A DNA stretch of 64,000 nucleotides from Acetobacter tropicalis (lineage in GTDB: Bacteria; Pseudomonadota; Alphaproteobacteria; Acetobacterales; Acetobacteraceae): positions 1 to 64,000 of the forward strand of contig NZ_LHZQ01000218.1 of the NCBI RefSeq assembly GCF_001580915.1. Reading direction: 5' to 3'. Below the pieces are notes generated by a model that was not told where the DNA came from, made no database searches, and worked only from the letters and a program-made list of their open reading frames with translations. Position 1 is the stretch's first letter. Each line of letters begins with the position of its first letter. The position numbers and the translations under genes were made by a program. Positions 11,056-25,405 of this stretch are shown one piece after another.

Positions 11056-11287
11056 TTGGGTACCGGAACACACTCCCGCTATTTGTGGCAGTGCCGCACG
11101 CGTATCACTCACTTTTTACAGGAGAATATATTCCTTCCTCATTGCGCGACAGAACGTAAAGCCGGCCTTTTGCTGGTGCTCTTAACCTTAAGGGCACTAC
11201 GGGCAGATGCTTTTTCTGGTGGAATTGTCTCTTTGTCCGCAATACAGGCTTGGCAGCATCCCGCCTTTGCGCTAGGGAAAGGCCCGT

Positions 11288-11364
11288 GGACCCGTAGCTC
11301 AGCTGGATAGAGCGTCGCCCTCCGAAGGCGAAGGTCGAAGGTTCGAATCCTTTCGGGTCCGCCA
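11288..11364 (+). tRNA. tRNA-Arg (CCG)
   Basis: A 77-nt cloverleaf with acceptor GGACCCG/CGGGTCC, D-arm AGCTCAGCTGGATAGAGC, anticodon stem TCGCC/GGCGA with loop CTCCGAA, T-arm GGTTCGAATCC and encoded CCA. The anticodon CCG reads CGG. A weak -35/-10 pair (TTGGCA, 17 bp, TAGGGA) lies at 11250-11278. An integrase remnant 40 bp downstream suggests that this tRNA was a phage attachment site. Confidence 0.95.
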
Positions 11365-11407
11365 TCTATGGAACAAAACCGCAGTTTATAGCCATTTTTT
11401 CATGGTG

Positions 11408-11684
11408 TTAGACGCTATTGTTTTTGGCGTTAGACACTTTCTCAAATTTTGCCATAGCTTCAAGCTCCATCTTTTTTTGCTCGACTGATTTTGTATAGCG
11501 CATGACTTTGGCAAGGGATCGGTGGCCTAGAATCGCAGCTATTTTGATGCGGGGAGCGGCACAATGGGAGTGTCGCCGCAGCGCACCAGTCCTTGAAGAC
11601 ATTATAAAAAGCCATTCACGCCATATGGCTTCCCATCACTGATGCGCGATAGGTCAGTCTGGTCGCGTCCGTTCCAAGCATCCT
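11408..11684 (-). pseudogene. Tyrosine integrase, C-terminal remnant
   Basis: The minus strand retains the end of a phage integrase in shifting frames: SDGKPYGVNGF, then FYNVFKDWCAAATLP, then ILGHRSLAKVMRYTK, which holds the box II G-H and the catalytic Tyr. At least two frameshifts separate the pieces. It abuts the IS element at 11685 and is the distal half of the gene whose proximal half lies at 12547-13010. Its position beside tRNA-Arg fits an element integrated at the tRNA 3' end. Confidence 0.75.
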
Positions 11685-12534
11685 GGGCTAATCGACATTC
11701 ATGCGATCCAAATCATGACTGCTGCGATATAGATGAAGCCGGTGAAATGGATGGTTCTGCGATCGTAGCGCGTTGCGAAACGACGAAAATGTTTGAGGAG
11801 ATTGAAGCATCGTTCGATACGGTTTCGGTCTTTATAAAGAGCCAGGTCGTGCGAGATGAACACCTTGCGGTTCCGTTTTGACGGAATGACAGCCTCTGCG
11901 TTCATGACGGCAATCTTTTCGCGGAACCCATTGCTGTCATAAGCCTTATCGGCGATGACCGCGCTCGCAGCCTGGCCTTCGAGCAATGCAGGTGCCTGGG
12001 TGGCGTCATGAACCTGACCGCCGGTGATAATGAACCGTAACGGTCGACCCAGAGCGTCGGCCAGCATGTGGATATTGATGGTCAATCCACCTCGGGAACG
12101 CCCCAGCGCCTGATCTTGCGCCCCCCTTTTCCGGTCGCCGCGTGCTGGTGGGCACGGACAATGGTGCTATCGATTATCAGATGCGCATTGTCGCGATCGG
12201 CGGTCAGCGCAGTGAGTACCCGCTCCCACACGCCGGCATGGCACCAACGACTGAAGCGCCGGTGGACCGTCTTCCAGTTTCCTTAGCGTTCAGGCAGGTC
12301 GCACCAGTGAGCGCCAGATCGCAAGACCCCTAAACATCCTTTTACGAACAGACGGTTATCCGATCCAGTCCGCCCAGGATCACTCGCTTTCCCAGGCAAC
12401 AGAACCCTGATCTGCTCCCACTGCGCTGTGCTCAATTCGTATCGCTTGATCCCCATCGCATGCTCTCCCCATCAACACGGAGACCTATGAAGCAGCGATT
12501 AGCCTATTTGGGAATCCTGAATGTCGATTGACCC
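11685..12534 (-). mobile_element. IS5-family (IS427-like) insertion sequence, degenerate
   Basis: About 850 bp bounded by related ends: GGGCTAATCGACATTCA at 11685-11701 and the inverted TGAATGTCGATTGACCC at 12518-12534. It encodes a two-frame DDE transposase on the minus strand. It sits inside the phage integrase gene. No target duplication could be confirmed by eye. Confidence 0.75.
11699..12457 (-). pseudogene. IS5-family transposase, broken
   Basis: The first frame begins at an ATG near 12457 with [17 protein letters not shown] and continues through HWCDLPER, where an in-frame TAA replaces a residue. It resumes as WKTVHRRFSRW and IIDSTIVRAHQHAA (first catalytic Asp). After a G-rich stretch near 12120 the second frame (11699-12085) carries the remaining DDE domain, with ADKAYDSNG and DRNRIERCFNLLKHFRR, the latter containing the catalytic Glu. 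Such a two-frame arrangement is normal for this IS group and relies on -1 frameshifting, but the internal TAA makes this copy likely inactive. Confidence 0.7.
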
Positions 12535-12546
12535 TAGCTCATCCCT

Positions 12547-13010
12547 TCAGATCTGAGTGGATGGGTATCCAGAGACATGCGCTAGCCTCTGCTGCGTTCC
12601 ACTCGTCCATTTTTGCAGGTATTGATCTATTTCTGCATCTGTCCAAGCATGGATACCTTCGCTTTTTTGTCGTTTAACCTTCACCGATACCGTTGGATCA
12701 TCCTCTCGCCAGCTTTTGCCAATAGCGAACAGCATCAACTGGCTGAGAAGTCGCGGATGTGCGTTCGAGTGGTGGTGGCATCGCCAAGAGTGTTGATTGT
12801 GGCCATCGCATGCTGAGCTTTCGTTTCAGCAAAAGGACCGCATCCAGCCGGGTTTGAGCGTATGCGTTGCAAGAACAGATTATACACGGCCTGAGTGCTT
12901 TTCCTCAAGTTTAGGTATTCATCAGATTTTTTCCATTGGATGATTAGAAATTCGAGAGAGCCTAATTGGACGCGTTTCCTTCCGGCCTTCTGTGATCTTG
13001 ATGCTTTCAA
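12547..13010 (-). pseudogene. Tyrosine integrase, N-terminal part, frameshifted
   Basis: The first frame (13010-12735) holds the SAM-like core-binding domain: FLIIQWKKSDEYLNLRKSTQAVY. A frameshift at about 12736 moves to a second frame (12738-12547) with WREDDPTVSVKVKRQK, GIHAWTDAEIDQYL and GTQQRLA, the typical junction before the catalytic domain of rhizobial and acetobacterial phage integrases. The catalytic middle is then lost where the IS5-type element enters. The gene cannot produce a working recombinase. Confidence 0.75.
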
Positions 13011-13083
13011 GTTCTTTTATCGCCAATGCTCGAAATGCGCTTACTGACAACGCAAGGTACTCTGTTGCCTCTTTGGTGCGCAT
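12922..13083 (-). CDS. AlpA/excisionase-like HTH protein
   Basis: A small protein of about 53 residues that starts with RTKEATEYLALSVSAFRAL, the helix-turn-helix form of AlpA/Xis-type excisionases. It overlaps the 5' part of the integrase in another frame, an arrangement common in temperate phages. The Met at 13083 is used; the frame is open to 13155. With the integrase destroyed it probably has no current function. Confidence 0.55.
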   Translation of the reverse strand: MRTKEATEYLALSVSAFRALAIKELESIKITEGRKETRPIRLSRISNHPMEKI

Positions 13084-13281
13084 TACCTTGCGTTTTACGT
13101 TAGATGCAGACACGCTCCTTATTTGTGGATGTTCTAAAAATGTCCTTGTTTGCACGCGTGGTCATCCTTACTCAGGACATATCCTGTCAGGATTTCTTGA
13201 AAACCGGCTTTTATGTAGCCAGTTTTTTGTGTCTGATGCTCAACTCAAAACTGGAGGCGTCCATATGGACGGAACACCATA

Positions 13282-13776
13282 GTGTCGAGGACAACCACGT
13301 CCTCAGGGACACCTATCCCTGCATTGCCGCTGGCATCCTCCGTCTCAGTGACGGATACGGTCATTGGCGTTGTGACATCGGGCGGCGTGACTGCTGCTGC
13401 GAAATTTGCAGTATCTGCGGAGCAGGGCGGCCAGGCCGCGACTGACACCGAGCCTGCGGTGCTTACGCCTGATATCCCGCTAGACGATGCCACAAAAATT
13501 GGCAGCACAGGCAAGACTTTATCCGATGTGCTGGCGCGGGCCGATCAACTGCCGTCAGGCACATATTACGTTGATCAGAACGATGTTGTTCGATTGGCGC
13601 GTCAGGTAGGTGAGCTACCAGATGACGTGTCGCTGAACGGCAATGTTTACATGGCAGGCGCAACTGCTCTGCCGACAGGCCTTACTTCAAATGGTGGCGT
13701 CATCATGACCGACGGTACCATCTATTTCCCCAATACCTGGAACAATAACGGCGTCCTGTGCGCCGCTGGAGTATAA
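13282..13776 (+). CDS. Phage tail-associated protein
   Basis: Protein of 164 residues beginning with GTG at 13282. It is rich in Thr, Gly, Val and Ala. The second half reads DATKIGSTGKTLSDVLARADQLPSG and then a beta-rich region with TSNGGVIMTDG, as in tail-fibre or baseplate-linked repeat proteins. Just four bases separate it from the S74 fibre gene. The missing upstream structural genes and the abrupt N-terminus suggest it lies at the edge of a deletion in the prophage. Confidence 0.5.
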   Translation: MSRTTTSSGTPIPALPLASSVSVTDTVIGVVTSGGVTAAAKFAVSAEQGGQAATDTEPAVLTPDIPLDDATKIGSTGKTLSDVLARADQLPSGTYYVDQNDVVRLARQVGELPDDVSLNGNVYMAGATALPTGLTSNGGVIMTDGTIYFPNTWNNNGVLCAAGV

Positions 13777-13779
13777 ATT

Positions 13780-14808
13780 ATGTCTGTAGCAACTGGTAAT
13801 CCTGTTTTTGAAACTGTTGGTGGTGATGCTTCCGCCGCCACTGTGACACCAACTGGCAGAACGACGGCTGGCAGCTTGGCTGATCTGGCCGCACAGGTCG
13901 TGACGAATACGACTGATGCAGGAACGGCAAAAGCCAATGCTGCTTCTGCGCTTAACACAGCCAATTCCGCAGCAGCGCAGGCTACAGAGGCGCTGTCTCA
14001 GGCCAGCAAGGCAATTACGTCCAGCAGTGCTAACATCGCTGGCGGATATGCTGCGCTGGATGGTTCAGGGAATGCCAATGTTCCTGGAAATATGGCTGTG
14101 GGTGCCAGCAACTCTGGAGCACGATCTTTTTCCATTGGCCATACGGGTCTTAAAGACTGGATCAGGTTTCAGTTCTATACAGGGACAGGTGTCGCGGCCA
14201 ACCCAGACTTTGTTTTTATCGGTATGAATGGTACAGGCAATACGGATGGGACTTGCGCTTTGCAGGGGACGGCTTTTCAACCCCTGTCCTCTAATACAAT
14301 GACCCTTGGGTCATCTAATAATGCATGGTCTGGTATTACGTCTCAGACCGCTGTTGATGTCATTTCTGACTTGAATGACAAAAATATCATCGGCACGCTT
14401 GGAAATGCTACATATGCGGATGTAACTGCTAAGCTTCGTGTCGTATGGGCGTCCATTTCTGGTGTCGTCTATACCCTCAAATCCGGTCAGTCCGGCCGAC
14501 AGCATATTGGTGTCATTGCACAGTATGTGGCCGCTGCGTTCAAGGCGGAGGGACTGGATGCTGCTGACTTTGGTGTGTGGTGTTCCACACCCAAAAAGCA
14601 GATTGTCACCAAGGCCGTTGATGGTCAGAAAATAATGTCTATCGAGCCTGTTTACGAGACCGATGGTAAGACCCAGGCAACTCAAGAAACCATTCGATAT
14701 GCTGAACTGCTTTCTCTTGGTCTGTTTTGTGAAAAACTGGAACGTGCTGATCTTGAGGCGCGTGTGGCTGCGCTGGAAAGCAAATCCACGTCTTCTATAG
14801 CCGCTTGA
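13780..14808 (+). CDS. Phage tail fibre with S74-like chaperone domain
   Basis: Protein of 342 residues. The N-terminal half has an Ala-rich coiled coil (about residues 45-75, ALNTANSAAAQATEALSQASK), followed by a beta-rich stalk. From about residue 195 it carries SDLNDKNIIG and, near 241, HIGVIAQYVAAAFKAEG, matching the intramolecular chaperone/peptidase S74 family; the Ser-Asp pair is where such domains self-cleave after trimerising the fibre. A final coiled coil (LEARVAALESK) follows. It sits between another tail protein and the CotH-like gene with 4- and 8-bp gaps, so the three form one late-gene transcript. Confidence 0.75.
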   Translation: MSVATGNPVFETVGGDASAATVTPTGRTTAGSLADLAAQVVTNTTDAGTAKANAASALNTANSAAAQATEALSQASKAITSSSANIAGGYAALDGSGNANVPGNMAVGASNSGARSFSIGHTGLKDWIRFQFYTGTGVAANPDFVFIGMNGTGNTDGTCALQGTAFQPLSSNTMTLGSSNNAWSGITSQTAVDVISDLNDKNIIGTLGNATYADVTAKLRVVWASISGVVYTLKSGQSGRQHIGVIAQYVAAAFKAEGLDAADFGVWCSTPKKQIVTKAVDGQKIMSIEPVYETDGKTQATQETIRYAELLSLGLFCEKLERADLEARVAALESKSTSSIAA

Positions 14809-14816
14809 GGTGATGT

Positions 14817-16166
14817 ATGAGCGATATTCTTGACAATACAATCTGGGCGCTGAACAGCGCCCAGACCTCTGTGCAGATCCCGCGTCCGTCAGGGCAATTT
14901 CGTATGATTCTGACGGGAGATTTGCCTGCATCATCCAGTGATACAACAAGTGTGAAATGTGCTCTGATGCAGGGTGAAAATATGCTTTTCAGGTGTGCTG
15001 CTGATATCTCATGGCAAGGTCAGTCTTCCATGGCTGACCCAAAGCACAATTTCAAATTGAAACTGAAAACCGAGGCAACAGAGGACAAATTTTCCGTCAA
15101 ACTTGGCTCGTGGGTGCCTACGAACAAGATTGACCTGAAAGCCTATGGTCAGGGTCCCAACAAGAATTATGGCAATTCTGATCGGTCCATGGTGCGGGAT
15201 ACGACTGCCGGGAAAGTATGGCGCGCAATTCGGCGTGCAAGCTCTTTTCCGGACAATATGATCGTGCCATTGCACGCCTGGGCCTACGATCAGGTAAACG
15301 ATAATGGATTAAGATCCGGCGCCCTTTTTTCCACAGAAGGGTTTCCTTGTGCTCTGTATTTTGGTTCGGATTTTTACGGTCTTTATACATTCCGGTCCAC
15401 GGCTCCTAATGAGGATTATCTCATTGATGAGAAAAATCCTATGCATTATCTGCTACAGCCGCAGCACATTCATGGAACGGGTGCTAATTCCTGGTATCAG
15501 TTTGATAGTAGCGGGTGGGCCATTAGTAGTCCGAAACTCAAGGGTTATGATGACCAGGATGACATATCAAAGAAATTTCCAAAACAGTTTGCTGTCATAA
15601 ACAGGCTGTTTACATATTTTGGGAATGTTTACTCTGGGGCGGATACTCTGGCCAATGCAGAGCAGTATATCAATGTTTCTTCATGGATAGACTATATTCT
15701 ATTTTGTGAAGTTGTTGGAAGTAACGACGCGTTCATGAATAATGTCATGCTCGCCTCATGGGATGCTACCAGTACATCAGGACTTTGGCATCTATGCGCT
15801 TATGATCTGGATGAAACTTTCGGGATATTATTTGGAAACACTGGAACAAGCACACTAAACACTCCAGAGGGGATGGGGTTTGTGAGCAACGTAAACCGTT
15901 TTACCAATGGTATTTTCTACGATCTCAACCAGTTTTTTGCGCAGGTTATTCGGTTTAGGTATGCCAGTCTTAGAAAAATAGGTGTTATTTCTGAGACATC
16001 CTTGTTTCAAATGGTCTTTGAAACAACCCATTTGATGGACCCTGATGATGTTGAGACTGACAACACCATGTGGGGTACGAATGTTCAGGCAAAGATCGGT
16101 TATATCCTGAACTGGATTAATCGGCGTATATCCTGGTTGGATCAGCAGTGGGGCTACAGCGGGTAA
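14817..16166 (+). CDS. CotH-like protein in a phage tail module
   Basis: Protein of 449 residues with features of the CotH family of atypical protein kinases. ISWQGQSSMADPKHNFKLKL (about residues 65-85) corresponds to the strain G-x-S...K-x-f-x-l-k motif; IDLKAYGQG and a later RSMVRD match the downstream block; YDLDETFGILFG near residue 330 corresponds to the D-x-D-x-T-F/W-G metal site. CotH proteins phosphorylate spore-coat proteins in Bacillus, and relatives occur in many secreted or phage contexts. A GAGGTGATG site precedes the ATG, eight bases after the fibre gene. In this setting it may modify or decorate the tail fibre, which is an inference. Confidence 0.65.
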   Translation: MSDILDNTIWALNSAQTSVQIPRPSGQFRMILTGDLPASSSDTTSVKCALMQGENMLFRCAADISWQGQSSMADPKHNFKLKLKTEATEDKFSVKLGSWVPTNKIDLKAYGQGPNKNYGNSDRSMVRDTTAGKVWRAIRRASSFPDNMIVPLHAWAYDQVNDNGLRSGALFSTEGFPCALYFGSDFYGLYTFRSTAPNEDYLIDEKNPMHYLLQPQHIHGTGANSWYQFDSSGWAISSPKLKGYDDQDDISKKFPKQFAVINRLFTYFGNVYSGADTLANAEQYINVSSWIDYILFCEVVGSNDAFMNNVMLASWDATSTSGLWHLCAYDLDETFGILFGNTGTSTLNTPEGMGFVSNVNRFTNGIFYDLNQFFAQVIRFRYASLRKIGVISETSLFQMVFETTHLMDPDDVETDNTMWGTNVQAKIGYILNWINRRISWLDQQWGYSG

Positions 16167-16194
16167 AAACCTGACCGTCTGACGATGACTTTTG

Positions 16195-16215
16195 CCGCCG
16201 TTGGGCGGTTTTTTT
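16195..16215 (+). terminator. Terminator of the tail operon
   Basis: Stem CCGCC/GGCGG with a 4-base loop followed by seven T residues, 28 bp after the CotH-like stop codon. Confidence 0.8.
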
Positions 16216-16309
16216 GTATCCTAAAAACACATAACAGGCACATGAGCGAGGCTGATGCCTCCGCGTCGGATGATGACCTGCGGTCCATTGTCGATGGGCA
16301 TACGGAAGA

Positions 16310-17379
16310 TGAATTGCCTCAGGTTTGTGGAGACGTTTTTTATCTGAACTAAGCGGCTAATGCATGTGATTTCTGTTGTGCACAAAAGTGTGATTCATCT
16401 GGCGGGATGTTTCCAATGGAGGACAGGAGCTGCCGATTGTTGAACCAGTCGCCCCACTTATGCGTTGCCAGCTCAACAGCTTCCTTGTTTTTCCATAGTC
16501 CTTGCCGATAGATGAGTTCGGTTTTGTAGAGCCGTTGATAGTCTCCACCAAGGCGTTATCATAGAAAAATCCCCAACGCTTCCGACAGAGGCAACGAGGC
16601 CTGCTTCAACCAGCCTTTGCGTGTAGCGAATAGACACATATTGACTACCCTTATCGGAATGATGGATCACTTTTCCCTCAGGCTACCTCTGGCACAGAGC
16701 CTGTCAGAGGCAGGTGTATGGAACTGACGCTGAAACAGATCCTATCGGCAGGGACGTTGCGGGTCTGGTCCCTTTGCCACGAATAACACTTTTTAGTCCC
16801 ATCTGGCGCCTCAGCCGCTTTACCGTGCAGCTGGCGATAGTCCTGCCTTCGCGTCTGAGCTGATGCTAGACCTTGCGTACTCCGTAGACACGGAAGTTAT
16901 CGTTCCATATTCTGCCGATTTCATGACACAGCTCTTTGTCTTTCTGGTTGCACACAAAGGGATTTTTTTGCCTGGCTACAGGGGCATAATAGACAGATGG
17001 CGCAATCGGCAGAACCTTGCAGATTGACCCGACACCATATGTCTGCCGGTGTTCCTCAATGAAGCGTGTCATGGCCTGCCGCAATGCGCGGTTCTCACGC
17101 TCCGGTTGCCTGATCTCTCCCGATCAGGAAGCTCACTTACCGCAGGTGCATTGCTCGTTCATGAAGACGGGTCCATTTTGACAGCGTGTCAGGATGAATA
17201 TCCAGCTTTGGCGCTATCATCATCACTGCTGAACAACGGGACGGATGGTTTTTCTCTTCTTCCAGAACCATGCGGGCTGCACTGTCGCGGAATTCAGGCG
17301 GAAAACGCTACGATTTGTTACTCATAATTATCTCTTACCTATCGGGTCCGGCTGTCTCCACAAAACCCAGGGCAATTCA
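16310..17379 (-). mobile_element. IS3-family insertion sequence, decayed
   Basis: Ends are matched imperfect inverted repeats: TGAATTGCCTCAGGTTTGTG... at 16310-16335 and its counterpart TGAATTGCCCTGGGTTTTGT... (reverse complement of 17353-17379). Between them, on the minus strand, is an orfA remnant followed by an orfB remnant in several frames. The roughly 1.07-kb length is somewhat short for the group, consistent with internal loss. Confidence 0.75.
16360..17325 (-). pseudogene. IS3-family transposase orfA/orfB remnants
   Basis: orfA begins near 17325 with MSNKS, an immediate in-frame TAG, then RFPPEFRDSAARMVLEEEK and HPDTLSKW (helix-turn-helix). orfB begins at 17084 with MTRFIEEHRQTYGVGSICKVL and ends a first frame at RVYGVRKV. 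The integrase core survives only as HHSDKGSQYVSIRYTQRLVEAG (16670-16600) and ETINGSTK in further frames. With several stops and shifts, it is not functional. Confidence 0.75.
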
Positions 17380-17916
17380 ACCTGACCTAGCAGTTAGAGG
17401 GACTGCTTAACATCAAGACCCCTTTTAGTCTGGAGCTTGATATCGGTGGGCGGGGCCCCTGCCACCTCGTTGCGCGGTTGCAGTAGGGACGAGTGGCGCA
17501 AATCGAATACAACGGGACGAGCGGCAACGCCGACTGGACACTATGCTGTCTTGAGGTCTCTCAAGGTGTTTCTTTTTTAAGTCACACTAGCATCACAATC
17601 TGTTAATATAGTTGCGGGTAGAAAAGCCGGGATAGGGACTGCAAATCCTCCACGTGAACATCAAGCGCCTAACGTATGCCGCATAAGCGTGCATGAAGAG
17701 TTCTGAGCAGGATAAGTCCCGAAAAATAGATGGTCAGAATAATCAAGGTTCTCCATATAAATAATAATGTTAAATAAGTATTGTAATTATAATGTTTATC
17801 AACAAAACGTTATGTTGAATTTTATGATTGTAATGGCCACATTCTGTATTGAGCATGACACGCACAGCGCAGATATTCAGAATGTGCGTATTGTATGAAT
17901 ATTACTGGAATGCAAG
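17380..17916. other. Non-coding interval after the IS3 remnant
   Basis: About 540 bp, increasingly AT-rich from 17570. No gene-like frame was recognised. No duplicate of the tRNA-Arg 3' end was seen here that would mark the far attachment site of the island. Confidence 0.4.
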
Positions 17917-18963
17917 ATGCCACAAGACGAGAAGAAAAGAGATTGGTCCCACGTTCTGCCGCATCTTCATTTGCCGCACTTCCACCTTCCACATATCCGA
18001 TTACCCCACATTCACTGGCCGCATTTCCACATTCATTTTCATGATCGACCGCTGGCGGGGGAGCCGCATCCTGAACGCCCCTTTCACTGGCGGCTTTATG
18101 GGTGTGAGATGGTTGCCACTGCGGTGCTCATGGTGGTCGGGCTTGCCTGCGTTATTCTGCTCTCAGCACCCCATTCATGGATAGGGGATCATCTCGCTCT
18201 GCATCCTGCCATTCAGGCGGCATTGTGCGGATTATGTTTCGGGCCGGCTGGAACAGTCGCGGCAATGACCCCCTTTGGCAAGGTCAGCGGGGCGCATCTT
18301 AATCCATCAGTCACACTGGCTTTCATGCTCTCAAAAAAAATCGTGTAGATTGATGCGCTGGGTTACATCATTTCTCAGATTATCGGTGCTGTTTTGGGAA
18401 CAGCGCTTGTTTATGGCGCAGGATATTTTCTCTCTTCATGGAAAGTGCATGCGCTGGCCGTGCATTACGGCGCGACCGTGCCTTATACGGGCGTGCCTGT
18501 CTGGTTTGCGCTTGGTTCTGAAATACTGGTTACGGGTCTGTTGATTGCCACACTATACTGGTTGGCGGCGCATCCGCGTTTCAAGTGGATCACCCCTTGG
18601 ATTGGAGGGATCTTCTTTTTTGTGATGAACCCACTTACCGCCTGGATTTCCGGCAACAGTGCCAATTTTGCGCGTTCGTTCGGACCAGATCTGTTTGCAG
18701 GTAACTGGAATGGCTTGTGGATTTATCTGCTAGGCCCTTTTATCGGGTCTTCTCTTGCTGTTATCGCCATTCAGGCGGATATATTGGGCAAAATTCATCT
18801 TATGGAAGCACGGTTGGTCAATTTCGGGCATCATGGGCGTGTGCCGCATATGGATGACCCGCATTTTGTCCACGAGGCCCCTGAGCATTATGAGGAGTAT
18901 AAACAGCATCTTCAAATGATCTCAGAATTACAAAAACAACGCACAGTAGAAGATGACATATGA
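17917..18963 (+). pseudogene. Histidine-rich aquaporin (MIP family) with internal amber stop
   Basis: One continuous frame of 348 codons interrupted only by TAG at 18346-18348 (codon 144); family context suggests it was TGG (Trp). Residues 12-42 hold twelve histidines in LPHxH-type repeats. Six membrane segments of an aquaporin follow. The first pore motif is HLNPSVTLA (NPS instead of NPA) and the second is SANFARSFGP (NFA instead of NPA). The C-terminal tail is again His- and acid-rich. Both halves keep good coding character, so the stop is recent or is read through. Aquaporins conduct water or small solutes; altered NPA motifs may change selectivity. Confidence 0.8.
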
Positions 18964-19090
18964 AATTGGTTGGTGAAGGCGGTAGCCTGACACACCAGAA
19001 TATGTAAGGATTTTTTTATTTCCTGCTTTTACAGGCCATGATGCAAAGGCCACCCGCGCGGAGCGGGTAGCCTTTGTGGGAGAGAAAAAA

Positions 19091-19528
19091 TTAAGGAGCC
19101 ATGGAAGATGCAATGGCTCCGCTCACCACCCCCGCAATAACACCCGTGGCAATGCTGGTCAGCAGGAACTGATTGCCATACTGGAGCCAGCGGTAACCGG
19201 AAGGTGGAGCCCACAGACCGGGCCGCCCGCGCCAGTTATTAACAACCCAGCGGTCACTGTATGGGCCGTCATAACGGTCCCCGCGCTGCCATCTGCGGTT
19301 CATGTCATAATTATCAAAGTTATCGCCTCGGCCGCCTCTGGGGCCATGCCTCATCTGGCCGCCCGGTCCACCACGCGGTGGGGGCGGGGGAGTAGCGCGC
19401 ATGTCTCGGCCGCCTTGTTGATAGAAGCCTCCGCGCTGGTTACCTGGACCAAACTGCTGCGCCAAAGCAGGCGAACCAAGCATCAGGATGCCGGTTGCCA
19501 GAAATGCCGCAATAGACTGTGTTTTCAC
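19091..19528 (-). CDS. RcnB-family periplasmic protein
   Basis: About 145 residues. Signal peptide TQSIAAFLATGILMLGSPALA, then a long Gly/Arg/Pro-rich low-complexity region, then the RcnB fold: RWVVNNWRG...LWAPPSGYRWLQYGNQFLLTSIATGVIAGVV. RcnB in E. coli modulates nickel and cobalt homeostasis in the periplasm; many alphaproteobacterial members are uncharacterised. The start was set at GTG 19528 because AAGGA lies eight bases before it and the signal peptide begins there, although the frame is open to 19630. Confidence 0.75.
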   Translation of the reverse strand: MKTQSIAAFLATGILMLGSPALAQQFGPGNQRGGFYQQGGRDMRATPPPPPRGGPGGQMRHGPRGGRGDNFDNYDMNRRWQRGDRYDGPYSDRWVVNNWRGRPGLWAPPSGYRWLQYGNQFLLTSIATGVIAGVVSGAIASSMAP

Positions 19529-19768
19529 CCGTTTTTCCTTCGCATAAGGGAGCATTCTGTCGTGCAGGGGGAAAATGCCCTCATGCAAACGGTGGCCTGT
19601 TTTTGAGGCTGTATTGTGGCGTTGCAGCATGGAGTTCCTCCAACATAGAAGGATAGGTGTCGCTGCCTTCAGTGGGTGTTTTTGTGAGCCCTAAGCGCAT
19701 GTTTTGCGTTTAGTATTTGCCGCGTATCGGTCTGATTGCGGTGTATCTGTTTTGATACAAATCACATT

Positions 19769-19796
19769 AAAAAAAGACGGCCCCGTAAAGCCGCCT
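19769..19796 (-). terminator. Terminator after the Asn/Gly-rich protein gene
   Basis: On the minus strand AGGCGGC pairs with GCCGTCT (one G-U) and is followed by seven T residues. It lies about 30 bp past the stop at 19825. Confidence 0.7.
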
Positions 19797-19824
19797 TTCT
19801 TGAGGGAAACTCTGGAGGAGTAGA

Positions 19825-20202
19825 TCAGTTCTGCTGGTTGCCGTCCTGCTGGTCGTTATCGCTGCGAGACTGGTGGTTGTGGCTACCCCGTTCTCTCCTG
19901 TTCTCCCGGCGGCTGCCACCGTTACTGTCTCCCTCTTCACGATTACCGCGCATGTTGCTCATACGCTCCATGTTGCCGCCCCGCCGATTATCAGAATTGC
20001 TCCCCATGCTTTGCATATCCTGCATGCCGTTCATCGGGCCCCGGTCACCATACTGGCTGCCAGTGCCATGCCCGCGTTCACCAGATTCACCATTATGGGA
20101 GAAATGACCGTTTTGGGACTGATAGGAAGAGTCATCCTGAGCTTGTGCCATGGCAGGCAGGGCAAGCCCAAAGGCCGCAGCGAGGATAAGTGCTTTTTTC
20201 AT
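19825..20202 (-). CDS. Exported Asn/Gly/Arg-rich low-complexity protein
   Basis: Protein of 125 residues. A textbook signal peptide (KKALILAAAFGLALPAMAQA) is followed by about 100 residues composed almost only of Ser, Asn, Gly, Arg, Asp, Gln, Met and His, so it should be intrinsically disordered in the periplasm. No known domain was recognised. Met- and His-rich stretches such as MNGMQDMQSMGS could bind metal, which is speculation. It belongs to a cluster of similarly small envelope proteins. Confidence 0.65.
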   Translation of the reverse strand: MKKALILAAAFGLALPAMAQAQDDSSYQSQNGHFSHNGESGERGHGTGSQYGDRGPMNGMQDMQSMGSNSDNRRGGNMERMSNMRGNREEGDSNGGSRRENRRERGSHNHQSRSDNDQQDGNQQN

Positions 20203-20569
20203 CTCGTAATATCCTTTCCGCTGGCCAATTTGTTTGCCAGCGTTCAGGCGGACGTTATGGATCAGGATGATTTTAATAAAGGGCTGGATGAAAATATCAG
20301 CTATTCACAAAGGATGTTTTGAAAACCAGCAAATGAACCATGGTGTAATTATGATTATAGGCCGGGAGGGCAGACATATTTACGTTACACACAACGGCCT
20401 GATGAGGCTTGTTTGGACAGAATGGGGCATGTACGTTGCTGTGTGACGTAAGAGCGCCCGTTTTGTGAGGGTTGTTTCAAGGGGAGGTAAAAAGGCCTCG
20501 CAAAAGTGTGTACGCGCTAATGTGGAGCAGGATGACTTTCCGTGCGTTAAAAACGCGGGAGGTATCGTG
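20203..20569. other. Intergenic region without a recognised gene
   Basis: Divergent interval between the Asn/Gly-rich protein and the small acidic/basic protein gene. Short frames here lack conserved features. Confidence 0.4.
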
Positions 20570-20698
20570 ATGACGAAAACTGAAAAAGAGAAGAAACCAT
20601 CGAAGAAAGAGCGTGAACTTGATGAGTCTCTGAAAGAAAGTTTTCCGGCCAGTGATCCGCCCTCACAGGAAGATCCGGATAAAAAGGTAGGGCGTTGA
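20570..20698 (+). CDS. Small charged protein with LDESLKESFPASDPPS motif
   Basis: A 42-residue soluble protein, highly charged at both ends. The centre LDESLKESFPASDPPS is a conserved signature of small proteobacterial proteins of unknown function. The ATG at 20570 follows GGGAGG by seven bases; the frame is open further upstream but composition changes there. A strong hairpin terminator follows. Confidence 0.7.
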   Translation: MTKTEKEKKPSKKERELDESLKESFPASDPPSQEDPDKKVGR

Positions 20699-20730
20699 TA
20701 CGGCTGCGCTAGCCTGAAAATCGTGTGGAA

Positions 20731-20766
20731 AAGCCTGCCACTCCGTGCTGGAGGGCAGGCTTTTTT
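20731..20766. terminator. Bidirectional terminator
   Basis: Stem AAGCCTGCC/GGCAGGCTT with a 14-base loop, six T residues on the plus side and an A4 run on the other, so it can serve both the small charged protein gene and the convergent Gly-rich lipoprotein gene. Confidence 0.8.
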
Positions 20767-20780
20767 GTGGAAATACTGCT

Positions 20781-21029
20781 TCAGTAACCGCCGCCGCCCA
20801 TGCTGCCATAGGGGCCAGACTGTCTGCCGCCCTGCTGGTTTTCGTAGCCGCCACCAGGGCCGCCGCCTTCCCGGCCACTGTAATGTCCGCCATGTTTGCC
20901 ACCATTTCCCCCTCCGCCGGGGCCACCAGGACCACCCATTCTGTCGCCTCCAGGGGGCGGAGGCATGCAGGCGGCCAGAGTACACGTTGCCAGAAGAGCA
21001 GCAAGGGCAGTGAGGGCTTTCGGTTTCAC
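20781..21029 (-). CDS. Gly-rich lipoprotein
   Basis: About 82 residues. Lipoprotein signal with lipobox TCTLAAC, then MPPPPGGD and an almost pure Gly/Pro/Tyr tail. Several starts are possible (TTG 21044, ATG 21038, GTG 21029); GTG 21029 is preferred because GGAG lies nine bases upstream and it gives a normal short lipoprotein signal. No domain recognised; probably anchored in the outer membrane with a disordered exposed tail. Confidence 0.6.
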   Translation of the reverse strand: MKPKALTALAALLATCTLAACMPPPPGGDRMGGPGGPGGGGNGGKHGGHYSGREGGGPGGGYENQQGGRQSGPYGSMGGGGY

Positions 21030-21142
21030 GAATAACATCTCCAAAAAGCGTATGGGAAAAGAAGCATCCGGTAGGAAAACGAAAAATTTATGGCAGAACC
21101 AGAGGCAATAAAGGCCGGGATGAAAAAATCAGGAAGCCCACG

Positions 21143-21352
21143 TCAATTATAAAGGCCAAGCGGGCCAGCAAACATCCATAATCCGGCAATCAGCAAAACG
21201 CCTGTCACAATAACGGGGAGGATCACCGCCACCAGAAAACTCCGGTTTGTTGGCTGGGGTGCGGGAATACCTGCCTCGCGGAAAATGGCGTCTGCCCGCG
21301 CATCCGCTTCGGCATCTTCGGGGTTTTCTTCGGTCCAGTTCTCTTCTGGCAT
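21143..21352 (-). CDS. Small single-span membrane protein
   Basis: Protein of 69 residues: an acidic N-terminal half (ENWTEENPEDAEADARADAIFREAGIP) and one hydrophobic span (SFLVAVILPVIVTGVLLIAGLW). CAGGAG lies about ten bases before the ATG. No family recognised. The acidic part should face the cytoplasm by the positive-inside rule only weakly, so topology is uncertain. Confidence 0.6.
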   Translation of the reverse strand: MPEENWTEENPEDAEADARADAIFREAGIPAPQPTNRSFLVAVILPVIVTGVLLIAGLWMFAGPLGLYN

Positions 21353-21475
21353 AGGGGAGATACTCCTGCGGCAAATATGTGCGTCTTGTAGCGTAGTCTG
21401 ACAGAAAGAGCCCTGTTTTCGTCACAATGCTTCCGCACGTCGATCTGGCACAAAAACGAACTGTCAGGCGTGTGA

Positions 21476-21937
21476 ATGATCAAAAATCCGGCCGTGGGCC
21501 TTGCGTGTGTCTGCCTGTTTCTGGCGGGATGCGCCTCTCATCGGCATGATGACGCACAGAGTGTCTGCCAGCAAGGGCCATCAGGCCAGGCCCGTCATGG
21601 CATGCACGGCACATTTCTCAGCAGTGTAGGAAAAACAGTTGGGGGTGCCATGCCAATGGCCCTGAATGCCATACCCGGTGTAGGGGGTGTGGCGGGTGGC
21701 CTTGCCGGTATGGGTATGCAGCAGGCCATGGGTGGCTTTACAGGCGGTCCCGGTCATTCCCTGGGGCAGGATGATGGGTTCCGTCAGAATGGCTTTGATC
21801 GGCACAAACCGCCTACTGAGGATGAGGAGGACGCCGCGCAGAGCCAGAGAAACGTTAAAACTATTCCCTGCAGGCCGGAAGAAGACGATATGCCCGATCT
21901 GCATGCGGAGGATATTCATATGGAAGAGACGCGCTAG
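21476..21937 (+). CDS. Lipoprotein with Gly/Met-rich central segment
   Basis: Protein of 153 residues. Lipobox CLFLAGC gives a lipidated Cys at about residue 19. A Gly/Met/Ala-rich hydrophobic segment (about 50-85, VGGAMPMALNAIPGVGGVAGGLAGMG) could insert into or coat a membrane, and the C-terminal third is acidic with several His. No family recognised. It converges on the Spy-like gene across a shared terminator. Confidence 0.6.
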   Translation: MIKNPAVGLACVCLFLAGCASHRHDDAQSVCQQGPSGQARHGMHGTFLSSVGKTVGGAMPMALNAIPGVGGVAGGLAGMGMQQAMGGFTGGPGHSLGQDDGFRQNGFDRHKPPTEDEEDAAQSQRNVKTIPCRPEEDDMPDLHAEDIHMEETR

Positions 21938-21984
21938 TCTGGTTCGCGTCGATACCGTGGAGCATAGGAAGCCTGCTTGCCAGT

Positions 21985-22013
21985 AAAAAGGCTGCCCCGA
22001 GAGGCAGCCTTTC
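21985..22013. terminator. Bidirectional terminator
   Basis: AGGCTGCC pairs with GGCAGCCT around a loop of six bases, with A5 before and a T-rich tail after. It separates two convergent genes. Confidence 0.75.
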
Positions 22014-22021
22014 TTGTGGTT

Positions 22022-22516
22022 TTACTTGTCCGCTGCGGGGGCAGTAGGGGCAGGCGGCGGGGGCGGCGGAAGGCAGGGTGCTTCTTCTTTCTTGGCAGCA
22101 ATCTGAGCAAGCTGCTTTTTGGTCAGCACATCATGAATTTGCACTTCTTTTTGCAGGTGCTGGGTTTCGCGGTTGGTGCGCAGGGTATCCAACTGCTGCG
22201 TAAGCGCTGTGAGCTGGTTGGTATCAACCTGACCTGGTGTGGTCAGTAGTGTGCGGATCTGTTCATGAATGGCGTGTTCCTGTTCCATATCCGCTTTGGG
22301 GTCTGGACGGTTTGCTTCCATGATCGCCTTGATCTTCTTTTTCTGAGAAGATGTCAGCTTAACGCCATCCAGAGAGAGGATGTGGCCGTGCGGGTGGCAC
22401 ATGCCATGGTGCGGCGGAGGTGGCGGCGGCGCGGAAGTTTCATCAGCCCGGGCCAAAGAGCCTGCCGCCGTGAACATTCCAAAAGTAAGGGCCGTGGCCA
22501 GCAAAGCTTTTTTCAT
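22022..22516 (-). CDS. Spy/CpxP-like periplasmic protein (LTXXQ type)
   Basis: Protein of 164 residues. Signal peptide KKALLATALTFGMFTAAGSLARA, a Pro/His patch, then a helical core with LTSSQKKKIKAIMEANRPD, the LTxxQ motif of the Spy/CpxP family. A second helical block follows (TALTQQLDTLRTNRETQHLQKEV), with a Pro-rich end. Family members are ATP-independent periplasmic chaperones and stress sensors. Its neighbour 2.5 kb away is RcnB-like, and both families respond to metals in enterobacteria. Confidence 0.75.
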   Translation of the reverse strand: MKKALLATALTFGMFTAAGSLARADETSAPPPPPPHHGMCHPHGHILSLDGVKLTSSQKKKIKAIMEANRPDPKADMEQEHAIHEQIRTLLTTPGQVDTNQLTALTQQLDTLRTNRETQHLQKEVQIHDVLTKKQLAQIAAKKEEAPCLPPPPPPAPTAPAADK

Positions 22517-22947
22517 TCCAAATGCCTTATGTCGTCATCAAAGGGAGAGGCACCGTGCAGGCACCTTTCCATAGAGCCATGATAGGAAGGGATATGTGGT
22601 GATAAAATGGCGCATTTGTGGAGGAAGCGATAAAATGATGCTCCCGCCTGATCTGGAAGGAAAACGGCTAAAAAAACAGAATTTAATCCAAAAAACGAAT
22701 AAATAGGAATTATTTAAAAATAAAATAACTCAATATAGTGTGATATAAAACAAGACCAAATTTGTTCTGTTACTTCAGGTATAAAATACAGAATTGACGT
22801 ATCAAGAAAAAAGAGTAGCCTCCAAAAACAGAGGTTACTGCGTTTCCTGCATAGATGGAGGCGCGGAAACTTCATGTTTTTTATGCTGCCTGTGGCCAAA
22901 AAGGCTGGTGAAAAAAGCCGCTTTTCCCACTGGCGCACATTGGAGGC

Positions 22948-23124
22948 ATGGATATGGGCTTGTACGGCGCTATCATTTTTTTCGGGGTGGATCTTATTCT
23001 GTTCGGCTTGGGGCTGCATGATATCAGTTTTGCTGCTTTCACAGCCGCATTCGTGTTGCCCGGCATTATTATGGGGGCCTATGCAGGACACGGCGTGAAG
23101 CAGGACAATATTGAACAGGCCTGA
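22948..23124 (+). CDS. Small two-span membrane protein
   Basis: An open frame of 58 codons (56 if the second ATG at 22954 is used, which has TTGGAGG at a better distance). The protein is mostly hydrophobic: GLYGAIIFFGVDLILFGLGL, then a polar HDIS turn and AAFTAAFVLPGIIMGAYAG, ending in a charged tail KQDNIEQA. Two membrane hairpin helices are likely. It is followed by a good terminator, supporting expression. No family recognised. Confidence 0.6.
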   Translation: MDMGLYGAIIFFGVDLILFGLGLHDISFAAFTAAFVLPGIIMGAYAGHGVKQDNIEQA

Positions 23125-23163
23125 ATTTGTTTTTCAGGTGGCCTGCTGCAACGGGCTGACATC

Positions 23164-23198
23164 ATGCCTGTATGGGACCGCCCATGCAGGCATTTTTT
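23164..23198 (+). terminator. Terminator after small membrane protein gene
   Basis: A 13-bp stem (ATGCCTGTATGGG with CCCATGCAGGCAT, one G-U) and a 4-base loop, followed by T5. Confidence 0.8.
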
Positions 23199-23435
23199 AT
23201 AGCAGGTGGTTTCGAGCCTGTTCTTAATCTCAACGCGCACGAGAACAGAGCTTAGCTTATTCGTTTATTGCGAAATTAAAGTAAGGGCCGCCCACTGCTT
23301 CTGTGCTGCACTATAATCCCCATTAAAATGAAGTCACCCAAAAAGCCAAAGAACTTGGGCATCACTAAAAACACGACGGTCAAGTTTACAATTTTTCAGG
23401 GAAAACGTTTTAAATCAAAGAATTAAGACAGGCGA

Positions 23436-23511
23436 TGGTGGAGCTGAGGGGAATCGAACCCCTGACCTCCTCATTGCGAACGAGGCGCTCTCCCAACTGA
23501 GCTACAGCCCC
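23436..23511 (-). tRNA. tRNA-Ala (CGC)
   Basis: A 76-nt cloverleaf on the minus strand: acceptor GGGGCTG/CAGCTCC (with one G-U), anticodon stem CCTCG/TGAGG with loop TTCGCAA (anticodon CGC, reading GCG), T-loop GGTTCGATTCC and encoded CCA. Confidence 0.95.
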
Positions 23512-23529
23512 GCCTGTATGGTTTTTGGG

Positions 23530-23557
23530 TGTATAGGGCTTACTAATAGCGTGTCAA
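23530..23557 (-). promoter_or_regulatory. Sigma-70-type promoter of tRNA-Ala
   Basis: On the minus strand TTGACA, a 16-bp spacer and TATACA end 18 bp before the mature tRNA, a near-consensus promoter. Confidence 0.7.
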
Positions 23558-23627
23558 GCTGTATTGTGGCATGGTTTTGGCATGGAGGTGTTCGCCTTCA
23601 ATGCTTTGAATTCAAAGGAGTTGCCGC

Positions 23628-23927
23628 TTGCTGTTTGGCCTTTTTTCACTGTTGATGCGGTTGCTGAACATTTATTGCTGGATTCTGCTCCTGTCCTGCA
23701 TTTTCATCAATCTTTGCATGTTCGGCATTCTGGATAGCCGTAACCAGTTGGTCTGGAAGGTGGGCGTGTTCTTTAATCGCCTGACAGAACCGGTGCTGGA
23801 ACCCGTGCGGCGCCTGTTGCCCATGCCGGGGGGAATAGATTTCAGCCCCATGGTTGTGTTGCTGGGTATTCAATATGTTGTGCAACCCATTCTGGTTGAA
23901 TTGTTCAGAATGCTGATAATGCGTTAG
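23628..23927 (+). CDS. YggT family membrane protein
   Basis: Protein of 99 residues with two to three membrane segments and the family core [35 protein letters not shown]. YggT proteins are small integral membrane proteins linked to osmotic or ion tolerance and cell-division loci. The start is TTG at 23628: AAAGGAG lies seven bases before it and there is no competing ATG. A strong terminator follows. Confidence 0.85.
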
Positions 23928-23977
23928 GCCACAGAGGGGCGATGTGAAGCAGTTCGCATCGCCTTGTTTTTTATCCT

Positions 23978-24007
23978 AAGGGCGTTCGGTCACGAACGCC
24001 CTTTTTT
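23978..24007 (+). terminator. Strong terminator after yggT-like gene
   Basis: An 11-bp perfect stem AAGGGCGTTCG/CGAACGCCCTT with a GTCA tetraloop and following T4. Confidence 0.9.
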
Positions 24008-24800
24008 GTGAGTGCACGGTTTTCCATTACTATTAAACAGGGGTAGCTCACCTTCTTTTCTGTCTTACAAGCGCATAGCTGCAAAGGGAGGCTAAGGTCG
24101 CTCTTCTTAGGTAGGAACAAATACCAGCACTTTTGGAGCAGTTTGTATCATGCTGGCCTGAATGTTTTGTGGGTGGAGAACGTTTTCCTGATCAGGTCTT
24201 ATGAGAAACGTTTTTTACTCTGCCATAGCGTTTCAACTATTTTTATAACCTTCTCGTTATTTATTTAATTTTCCGAATGGGTTTTATTTACGAAAACAGA
24301 TTCGATATTTTGTCTGTCCTGATTTTATAGGCTTCACCAGAGGAGATGGAGGGTTTCAAAACCCCTTCTTTCCCGCCCGTATAAAAAATCGTAACCCATT
24401 GATATTTCTACTATTATAAAAATTAAAATAGGGGTTTTTAGAACCCTCCAGATGAGGATTTTCATGGTGTTATTGCAGGCCATAAAGGCGCAATCAACAG
24501 ATATGCCAATTTTCAAAGTTCTGCATATTATGTTTTTTGGTCAAACATTTTTGTTCTTTTTGATCATGGTAACACCCAGGTTTTTTCAAGGGCACGATGC
24601 TTCCGGTAATTGAAGAGGCGGGAGTATTCAAGAATATTGTTTATAAAATCTGCTTTCTTTCAGATTTCATCATCGCAACTCCAGATGCGAACGTTGCTGG
24701 TCAGGCATTGTGCAGAAGGAGTGATATAATTGCGTATGTGCAGGCAGACAGAGGGGCAGCAAGGTAACATGCGCCGGTAAGACGCATGAAGCTGGGCTGG
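24008..24800. other. AT-rich gene-less region
   Basis: About 790 bp, clearly more AT-rich than the surroundings, with no gene-like frame. It contains two of the GGAGGGTT...AACCCCT palindromes and ends in a methyltransferase remnant. Confidence 0.5.
24348..24449. repeat. Paired GGAGGGTT...AACCCCT palindromes (copies 2 and 3)
   Basis: GGAGGGTTTCAAAACCCCT (24348-24366) and AGGGGTTTTTAGAACCCTCC (24430-24449) are inverted relative to one another and 63 bp apart. Each is also internally palindromic. The same unit occurs at 125-145. The head-to-head pair resembles a bacterial interspersed mosaic or REP doublet. Confidence 0.55.
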
Positions 24801-25190
24801 AGCATCAAGAAGACGCTCTGCTTCGTCCGGGCGGGTTCATTGCATTCAGTGTGCTGCATCCTTGTTTTATTACACCGGGCTTGAAATGGCAGAAGGATGA
24901 CCACGGTCAGACAACCGGCCTCTGCGTTGCACGCTATTTCAGCAAACAAAGTTTTATAGAGAACTGGAAATTTGGGGATCGCCCCAAAGATGAGAATGTA
25001 ATGCCGTTCTCTGTCCCTCGTTTTCCAAGGACTATCGGAGACTATCTCAATGCCGTTGCTTCTGCCGGCTTTCGCATCACACGAATAGAAGAGCCTCAAC
25101 CAACTGAACACACCTGTAAAATAGCGCCACGATTCCGCAGATGGCGTGACCTCGCGGCGTTCCTGCTGATGGTCAGAGGGAACGCCCGAA
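24801..25190 (+). pseudogene. SAM-dependent methyltransferase, C-terminal remnant
   Basis: In one frame: LLRPGGFIAFSVLHPCFITPGLKW, VARYFSKQSFIENWKFGDRP, then FSVPRFPRTIGDYLNAVASAGFRITRIEEPQPTE and RRWRDLAAFLLMVRG. This is the distal half of a class I methyltransferase with the R-P-G-G-x-x motif IV/V region; no N-terminal SAM-binding part (GxGxG) exists upstream. The frame continues to 25327 with sequence that no longer looks native. Confidence 0.65.
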
Positions 25191-25405
25191 GTGAGGGCTA
25201 TGGGACGCCTTCAGGCGTGCATCCTGGCCTGAGAATATTATGCGCTTTCCATGAGAGATGCCGCCATTGGAAGAGCACCAAAAAAACAGACTGTGTCTGT
25301 GCGACGCGCTTATGGCCCAAAGTCTGAGGAAGTATTTCCTGCCAGATGCACAAACATCTGTGAAAATACACATCAAAGCTTCACGATTCTAGGGGGAGTC
25401 TAAAA

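Follow-up and report, generated by a model that had tools for sequence, protein, structure and literature searches.

CotH-family proteins in phage tail-fibre modules: a candidate exchangeable enzyme of receptor-binding devices, viewed from a cassette of Acetobacter tropicalis

Introduction

CotH kinases are well known from spores, and Acetobacter does not sporulate. A spore-coat role is a mark of the founding members and not of the Pfam family as such. The window considered here, i.e. the whole stretch of 64,000 nucleotides at positions 1 to 64,000 of contig NZ_LHZQ01000218.1 of Acetobacter tropicalis (assembly GCF_001580915.1), nevertheless carries a tail-fibre cassette whose last gene, located at 14817-16166, encodes a protein which, according to profile searches and structure prediction, is a true member of the CotH family with the CotH-type atypical kinase fold. 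From the comparison of this protein with its phage relatives, we give about even odds (probability roughly 0.5) to the reading that CotH serves as an active phosphotransferase which would form the enzymatic part of a receptor-binding device and which would be exchangeable among phages.

The CotH protein of the cassette

The cassette is composed of three plus-strand open reading frames (ORFs) in tight series with spacers of 3 and 8 bases, in agreement with a preliminary description of this DNA made from the sequence alone, and is followed by a terminator-like site:

13282..13776, plus strand: 164-residue protein matching phrog_31364, the probable anchor of the fibre set
13780..14808, plus strand: 342-residue tail fibre with an S74-type chaperone end, matching Peptidase_S74 and PHROG tail families
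14817..16166, plus strand: 449-residue CotH-family protein, with a PF08757 match, the predicted fold and catalytic-type residues
16194..16219, plus strand: terminator-like stem-loop at the end of the cassette (stem-loop 16194-16209, then a T run)

The preliminary description had proposed the CotH assignment on the basis of the motifs WQGQSSMADPKHNFKLKL and YDLDETFG (residues 329-336), which are indeed present in the 449-residue protein, and two of the checks it suggested, a profile search and a structure prediction, upheld the assignment. The protein matches the Pfam profile PF08757 over practically its full length (positions 2-322 of 322; E=5.7e-17; 62.6 bits, cut-off 23.8). An AlphaFold2 model was built on the window protein aligned with 24 relatives, which were taken from viral contigs and from contigs of named genomes, and reached a predicted local distance difference test score (pLDDT) of 82.6 and a predicted template modelling score (pTM) of 0.87. 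It could be superimposed on Bacillus cereus CotH (5jd9) with Z=28.7 and 3.3 Å over 331 residues, at about 12% identity in the structural alignment, and on 5jda (CotH with Mg and adenosine monophosphate) with Z=28.4, and the next fold, the non-CotH protein CtkA of Helicobacter pylori, followed at Z 11.6. In a Foldseek search, the two CotH entries ranked at the top (E=2.8e-11 and 3.7e-11) and were followed by PI3-kinases at 2.3e-4 and weaker, and the best match to the model in a viral structure library bears the name 'CotH kinase protein'. A search of the PDB with the window protein alone gave no CotH match up to E=1, whereas alignment profiles did reach CotH in the PDB (E=2.5e-4 with a 13-sequence profile, to 5jd9, and E=4.1e-4).

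The catalytic-type residues of the window protein are K76, K108, D122, D304, N309, D330, and D332. In the profile alignment, D304 and N309 coincide with Asp224 and Asn229 of 5jd9, and D330 and D332 with Asp247 and Asp249, the positions in the 5jd9 chain being counted by hand from the printed alignment. In CotH of Bacillus subtilis, changes at Asp228 and Asp251 inactivate the kinase (PMC7821199). D304 and D330 probably correspond to these two residues, the step from 5jd9 to the B. subtilis protein being made by the equal spacing of 23 residues. The CotH identity is thus based on the agreement of profile, fold, residues, and the comparison with relatives described below.

Conservation and selection among CotH homologues

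In the loci fetched for comparison, 82 ORFs match the CotH profile and represent 55 distinct proteins including that of the window. Three of these were left out as fragments (two from locus L055, one from L014), and the window protein, which was listed twice, was counted once, which leaves 52 distinct full-length proteins from Acetobacter, Klebsiella, Acinetobacter, Lactobacillus-group, and further phage loci. They are diverse: clustering at 90%, 70%, and 50% identity yields 32, 23, and 19 groups, respectively, with minimum values of 16% in pairwise comparison and 18% to the window protein. Ten positions are invariant in 52/52 proteins (G68, K76, K108, D122, G188, D304, N309, Y329, D330, and D332), so that the CotH active-site residues, whose absence from an alignment the preliminary description had named as counter-evidence, are present throughout. 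Seven further residues (Q67, N78, R127, P239, W324, R437, and D442) differ in 1 to 10 of the 52 proteins.

The ratio of nonsynonymous to synonymous substitution rates (dN/dS) was estimated according to Nei and Gojobori for 15 pairs, 12 of which were used. It amounts to 0.06-0.12 across the whole CotH gene in five stand-alone pairs and to 0.04-0.08 across the CotH part in seven pairs of fused proteins, three of the 12 pairs having dS values above 1.6 and hence poor estimates. Of the remaining three pairs, two fused ones are saturated for dS in their CotH part, and for a distant one the ratio is 0.36 at a dS of 2.4. To judge from these ratios, the CotH relatives are under purifying selection; broken copies also exist (G047:C3 and L055).

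CotH domains in other phages

CotH domains were found in the records of Klebsiella, Acinetobacter, Lactobacillus-group, and Bacillus phages, where they are labelled 'CotH kinase family protein', 'CotH protein' or 'spore coat protein', as well as beside fibres in named Acetobacter genomes, and phage CotH is also mentioned by Benler et al. 2021 (PMC8008677). The expectation in the preliminary description that a virion-linked kinase would be unusual was therefore not borne out. In the Klebsiella, Acinetobacter, and Lactobacillus-group phages, a fibre or baseplate protein carries CotH as its C-terminal domain, and it is in these fused relatives, as distinct from the stand-alone protein of the window, that N-termini shared with proteins carrying other tip domains, i.e. 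common anchors, can be seen.

In Klebsiella phage ST437-OXA245phi4.1 (Peduoviridae), CotH constitutes the C-terminal part of a 649-residue protein encoded directly behind the genes for baseplate assembly, wedge, baseplate, and tail proteins. The first 107-134 residues of this protein share 45-55% identity with the N-terminal regions of proteins that occupy the same slot in other Klebsiella Peduoviridae, namely a beta-helix tailspike behind tail protein I (MK433580) and a tail fibre which in another record is annotated as putative endo-N-neuraminidase (NC_049453/MK422453). In a full-length model of the Klebsiella type, the CotH part matches 5jd9 with Z 28.8, and most of the N-terminal 240 residues are of low confidence. 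A comparable slot exists in Acinetobacter, bounded by two conserved genes on one side and by NlpC/P60 and host-specificity genes on the other. It holds either a 607-residue CotH protein or a protein annotated as neuraminidase, the N-termini of which are 40% identical over 95 residues. In Acetobacter, the slot of the cassette is taken by an 834-residue protein in a second phage region (L122) of genome G021, with flanks related to the genes before and after the cassette in locus L041. At its start, this protein is similar to the first cassette protein (44-61% over stretches of 28-62 residues), and towards its C-terminus it resembles glycoside hydrolase family 43 (GH43) at E=1.2e-5, below the Pfam cut-off. 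Two Lactobacillus-group phages combine a C-terminal CotH with N-terminal BppU_N regions, one above and one below the cut-off.

In two proteins of the Acinetobacter type (L064 and L076), identity is 74% over the initial 121 codons compared and drops to 28% over the remainder, which includes CotH. Another pair (L057 and L058) is 52% identical N-terminally and 97% identical in its CotH part. Moreover, the CotH part of the L076 type is 39-41% identical to Klebsiella CotH as compared to 24-26% to the other Acinetobacter CotH. As read from these comparisons, CotH parts and anchors recombine. A search of IMG/VR with a fused CotH of the type found in L025 returned no relative; five loci returned for a query of the L022 type matched its immunoglobulin-like part only and were not used.

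Linkage of fibre and CotH genes in Acetobacter

This CotH is present in 10 out of 147 related genomes, all belonging to the same genus. A fibre of a related prophage, used as query in 100 genomes, detected the fibre family in eight, and the window fibre recovered the same eight strongly (E<=1.5e-16). In all eight, the best fibre match adjoins CotH, either directly or separated by the gene for a small fibre-like protein of 136 residues that is often part of the cassette. Conservation of the fibre-CotH pair in other Acetobacteraceae, which the preliminary description had proposed to examine, is thereby observed, and the pair is also found in a second genus of this family (G246). Two of the ten CotH genomes, G026 and G045, lack the fibre and contain CotH inside proteins of 864 and 898 residues. 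In one further genome, G002, the fibre match is weak (E=3.2e-4, with two stops) and CotH is absent, and G042:C131 has a fibre fragment at a contig end with no CotH within reach. The overlap of fibre and CotH in 49 genomes of the genus gives a hypergeometric probability of 1e-7, which in view of the common ancestry of the cassettes is not a clean test.

The cassette follows baseplate genes in L041 (Acetobacter pasteurianus LMG 1262, contig NZ_CADO01000067) and L036, whereas in L038 it is placed between a minor tail protein and the tape measure, L037 being similar by eye; because of these contexts, the cassette appears to move between different kinds of tails. One of the genes downstream of the cassette has endolysin-family matches in two loci, and the other following genes gave weak matches or no identification. 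In the class as a whole, four of 385 sampled genomes carry CotH, including the genome of the window. The three others are G246 with the fibre-CotH pair, G275, where CotH lies among other genes and was missed by the phage profile, and G114, where it lies at a contig end.

Several observations were made in passing at these loci. The pair in G246 (L115:6689-9385) stands among genes that look host-like by eye. On G045:C82 there are two identical 898-residue CotH fusions (L024 and L025) in opposite orientation with neighbouring ORFs of equal lengths, representing either a duplicated prophage or an assembly artefact. Acyltransferase genes were found near fibre-CotH cassettes at L018:196-1296 (PF01757) and L026:9983-11083 (O-antigen-acetylase-type families phrog_3333 and phrog_6705), which suggests surface modification by the same elements.

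A special case is Acetobacter malorum, in which strains DsW_057 (L019/L043) and LMG 1746 (L021/L044) carry the genes for fibre, 136-residue protein, CotH, and an endolysin-like protein beside a TonB receptor gene, and no phage structural gene was recognised among the few neighbours scanned. Between the two strains, CotH is 90% identical (dN/dS 0.08) and the fibre 39%. The dS value of CotH is 0.64. Among the flanking genes, five of the six ORFs compared upstream have dS values of 0.42-0.57 (the sixth, of 104 residues, gave none), the two genes behind CotH have 0.49 and 0.61, and the following two on the same strand have 0.50 and 0.27. Three ORFs further downstream, on the opposite strand, gave odd values, with dS under 0.03 at an identity of 78-86%, and are unlikely to be genuine genes. 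Since dS is similar in CotH and in the flanking genes, the cassette was inherited together with its neighbourhood, and it could be a domesticated fragment. A fibre that varies while CotH stays would fit a division of labour in which the fibre provides specificity and CotH the activity, as far as a single pair can indicate.

Function of the phage CotH proteins

Because of the slot comparisons, CotH appears to replace proteins annotated as enzymes acting on surface glycans, and because the catalytic-type residues are conserved and dN/dS is low, the enzyme appears to be in use. Taken together, these lines of evidence make it most likely, at the odds given above, that the receptor-binding device has CotH as its enzymatic component. 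In this model, phages would have taken up an enzyme with the CotH-family kinase fold as an exchangeable part of that device. The Acetobacter form would be a separate protein made from one cassette together with the S74 fibre, the first cassette protein and often the 136-residue protein, whereas in the fused form of the Klebsiella, Acinetobacter, and Lactobacillus-group phages the fibre or baseplate protein would itself carry it as C-terminal domain. Either way, CotH would be held near the fibre tip in the place of a tail-spike enzyme and would most likely transfer phosphate onto a polymer of the target-cell surface, such as lipopolysaccharide, capsule or cell-wall glycan. Catalytic activity, presence in the virion, and substrate are putative properties that we infer from these comparisons, and the idea of the preliminary description that a virion-linked kinase modifies the fibre or the receptor is plausible. 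The wider proposal, that virion-borne CotH phosphotransferases represent a new class of tail-tip enzymes which modify rather than cut the surface polymer at adsorption and which spread by domain exchange among unrelated phages, is tentative and we lean somewhat against it.

A number of points weigh against a tip enzyme. ATP (adenosine triphosphate) is scarce outside cells, so that a tip kinase has no obvious phosphate donor. The stand-alone CotH is tied to the fibre by gene adjacency, and its binding to the fibre and its location in the virion are putative. Most slot partners owe their names to annotation, the Acetobacter partner resembles GH43 at a level below the cut-off, the window copy is located in a prophage remnant, and the A. 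malorum cassette is an orphan chromosomal locus for which a host-side role is possible.

The donor problem would be avoided if CotH acted within the infected cell, which has ATP in abundance, and phosphorylated the fibre, the 164-residue protein or itself during the building of the virion. In B. subtilis, the coat proteins CotB and CotG are phosphorylated by CotH, which also undergoes autophosphorylation (PMC7821199), the catalytic-type residues of the phage proteins are intact, the gene adjoins the fibre in 8/8 genomes, and fused forms could act in cis. No repeat rich in Ser/Thr and Lys/Arg stands out in the three cassette proteins, however, in which S/T make up 16-21% and K/R 4-8% (composition only). 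A fibre substrate would have to retain its site through a swap such as that in A. malorum, where the fibre is 39% identical and CotH 90%, and the slot partners elsewhere are annotated as enzymes acting at the surface. We therefore regard such an assembly kinase as unlikely. If instead the CotH fold served as a receptor-binding domain with its kinase activity unused, its C-terminal position at the tip and the swapping of domains would be accounted for, and the fungal surface protein CotH3 is described as binding the host protein GRP78 and thereby mediating invasion (PMC7140881). A pure binding domain, however, should tend to lose its catalytic-type columns and to diversify, whereas these columns are kept in 52/52 proteins at low dN/dS, and in A. 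malorum it is the fibre that varies and CotH that stays, which makes a mere adhesin improbable. The enzymatic tip part is also to be set against a decayed bystander, i.e. a cargo gene stranded in a prophage remnant and now without a role. Insertion sequences on both sides, scanned neighbours without a recognised structural phage gene, and the broken copies elsewhere (G047:C3 and L055) speak for such decay. Its probability is nevertheless small, as the three frames in the window are intact and as relatives in viral contigs and in the orphan A. malorum locus are under purifying selection, although the window copy, taken by itself, may be such a bystander.

Cassette partners and surroundings in the window

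The fibre of the cassette was confirmed to be of the S74-chaperone type named in the preliminary description by a short Peptidase_S74 match (E=1.3e-5; 25.8 bits, cut-off 22) that covers residues 222-258 of 342, i.e. part of the C-terminal half, and profile positions 19-57 of 58. Its best PHROG tail families are phrog_177 (9.5e-42) and phrog_7121 (9.6e-39), and it resembles the C-terminal part of tail spikes including capsule lyases (25-32% identity, 25 rows listed). For the 164-residue protein, called 'tail-linked' in the preliminary description, a phage family match was obtained, the only one in PHROG being phrog_31364, a family of unknown function, and the tail link follows from its neighbours alone; it is probably the anchor of the fibre set. 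Its relatives mostly comprise 234-260 residues, two of them 155 and 175, and in comparison to a 234-residue relative about 70 residues of the central stretch are absent. Six terminator-like sites were found as compared to 4.2 in shuffled sequences, so that the site at 16194-16209 alone is weak evidence for the end of the cassette. Further features near the cassette are:

11288..11364, plus strand: transfer RNA (tRNA) gene tRNA-Arg (CCG), possibly the original integration site
11685..12537 (approx.), strand not assigned: IS5-family insertion sequence, 92% identical to a copy carried by a plasmid of Acetobacter pomorum
16310..17388 (approx.), strand not assigned: broken IS3-family insertion sequence, flanking the cassette on the far side from the IS5 copy

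The cassette is a prophage remnant with open frames rather than a whole prophage, since insertion sequences bracket it and the scanned neighbouring ORFs have no recognised phage structural function. The tail-fibre setting given in the preliminary description stands, to which it must be added that the cassette does not lie in a complete phage. None of ten ORFs scanned in 17849-25324, a subset of those present there, matched a structural phage family, and two of them weakly match families of unknown function. An attachment repeat derived from tRNA-Arg was not found in 11200-24000, where the sole direct repeat, of 17 bases, lies clear of the tRNA. On the minus strand, 12547-13010 resembles a remnant of a tyrosine integrase by eye, which is not claimed here: 12735-13010 has no Pfam match up to E=0.1, and neither 12547-12735 nor 12735-13010 has a PHROG match up to E=0.01.

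Elsewhere in the genome of the window, a phage-like cluster was noticed (L118, G000:C156:33000-52999) which is resident in Acetobacter (also L119-L121, L123, L124, and L127) and encodes a major head protein, tail sheath, tape measure, baseplate, and fibre. Its structural-named genes show dN/dS values of 0.02-0.18 at dS of about 0.26-0.47 (pairs L119/L120 and L121/L124), and 15 of the 49 genomes of the genus have its head gene at >=75% identity, 14 times intact and once in pieces. This cluster may be a domesticated element, similar to a gene transfer agent or a tailocin. A link between it and the cassette was considered, as the head gene is present in 7/8 cassette genomes versus 15/49 in the genus (hypergeometric 5e-4), but was not used because kinship confounds the comparison.

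Relation to known systems and significance

The window protein shares with the CotH kinases of spore formers (B. cereus 5jd9/5jda and B. subtilis) the fold over 331 residues and the catalytic Asp pair; it differs by its sequence (about 12% identity), and the phage CotH proteins by their location in a tail-fibre cassette or their fusion to fibre anchors. With the tail-spike enzymes, i.e. beta-helix depolymerases and neuraminidase-like spikes, phage CotH shares the genomic slot and related N-termini, whereas these enzymes are hydrolases or lyases and CotH has a kinase fold. The tail-spike enzymes known to us all break bonds, be they lyases, hydrolases or esterases. SGNH esterases of Klebsiella prophages also belong to the tail-spike enzymes (PMC13123978); the slot comparison covered other spikes than SGNH proteins, and the word 'kinase' does not occur in the main text of that paper.

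CotH domains of phages fused to hypervariable C-type lectins have been described and, as of 2021, were unstudied (Benler et al. 2021, PMC8008677), and CotH is given for six putative target proteins of diversity-generating retroelements (PMC4159848). The likeness to the lectin-fused proteins consists in a CotH domain within phage proteins, the window protein being in contrast a stand-alone one beside an S74 fibre. Pfam recognised no lectin domain in nine fused CotH proteins scanned; diversity-generating retroelements were not searched for. The fungal CotH3 invasins (PMC7140881) are likewise CotH proteins at a cell surface, but they are eukaryotic, have no fibre, and bind another ligand, and in Clostridium perfringens a CotH gene is named in a locus beside polyphosphate polymerase genes (PMC11677781). 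Among the matches listed from titles and abstracts of the open PMC literature, with subscription papers and preprints lying outside the search, there was no study of CotH as an interchangeable tail-fibre enzyme. For 'CotH' combined with phage-tail words, the sole real mention among the papers examined was PMC8008677, the others holding surnames (Cother and one more) or 'cotherapies'. Phage CotH domains themselves are thus already known, and what is new here is a member of the CotH family in the role of a tail enzyme, a role that is predicted by comparison.

If this reading is true, a phosphate-transferring enzyme in the slot of a tail-spike enzyme would be a different way to handle a receptor and would raise the question of where the phosphate donor comes from. 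The cassettes and fused proteins provide small, clonable systems, with and without anchor fusion, for probing CotH domains outside spores, and the enzyme is probably part of how these phages recognise or alter their hosts.

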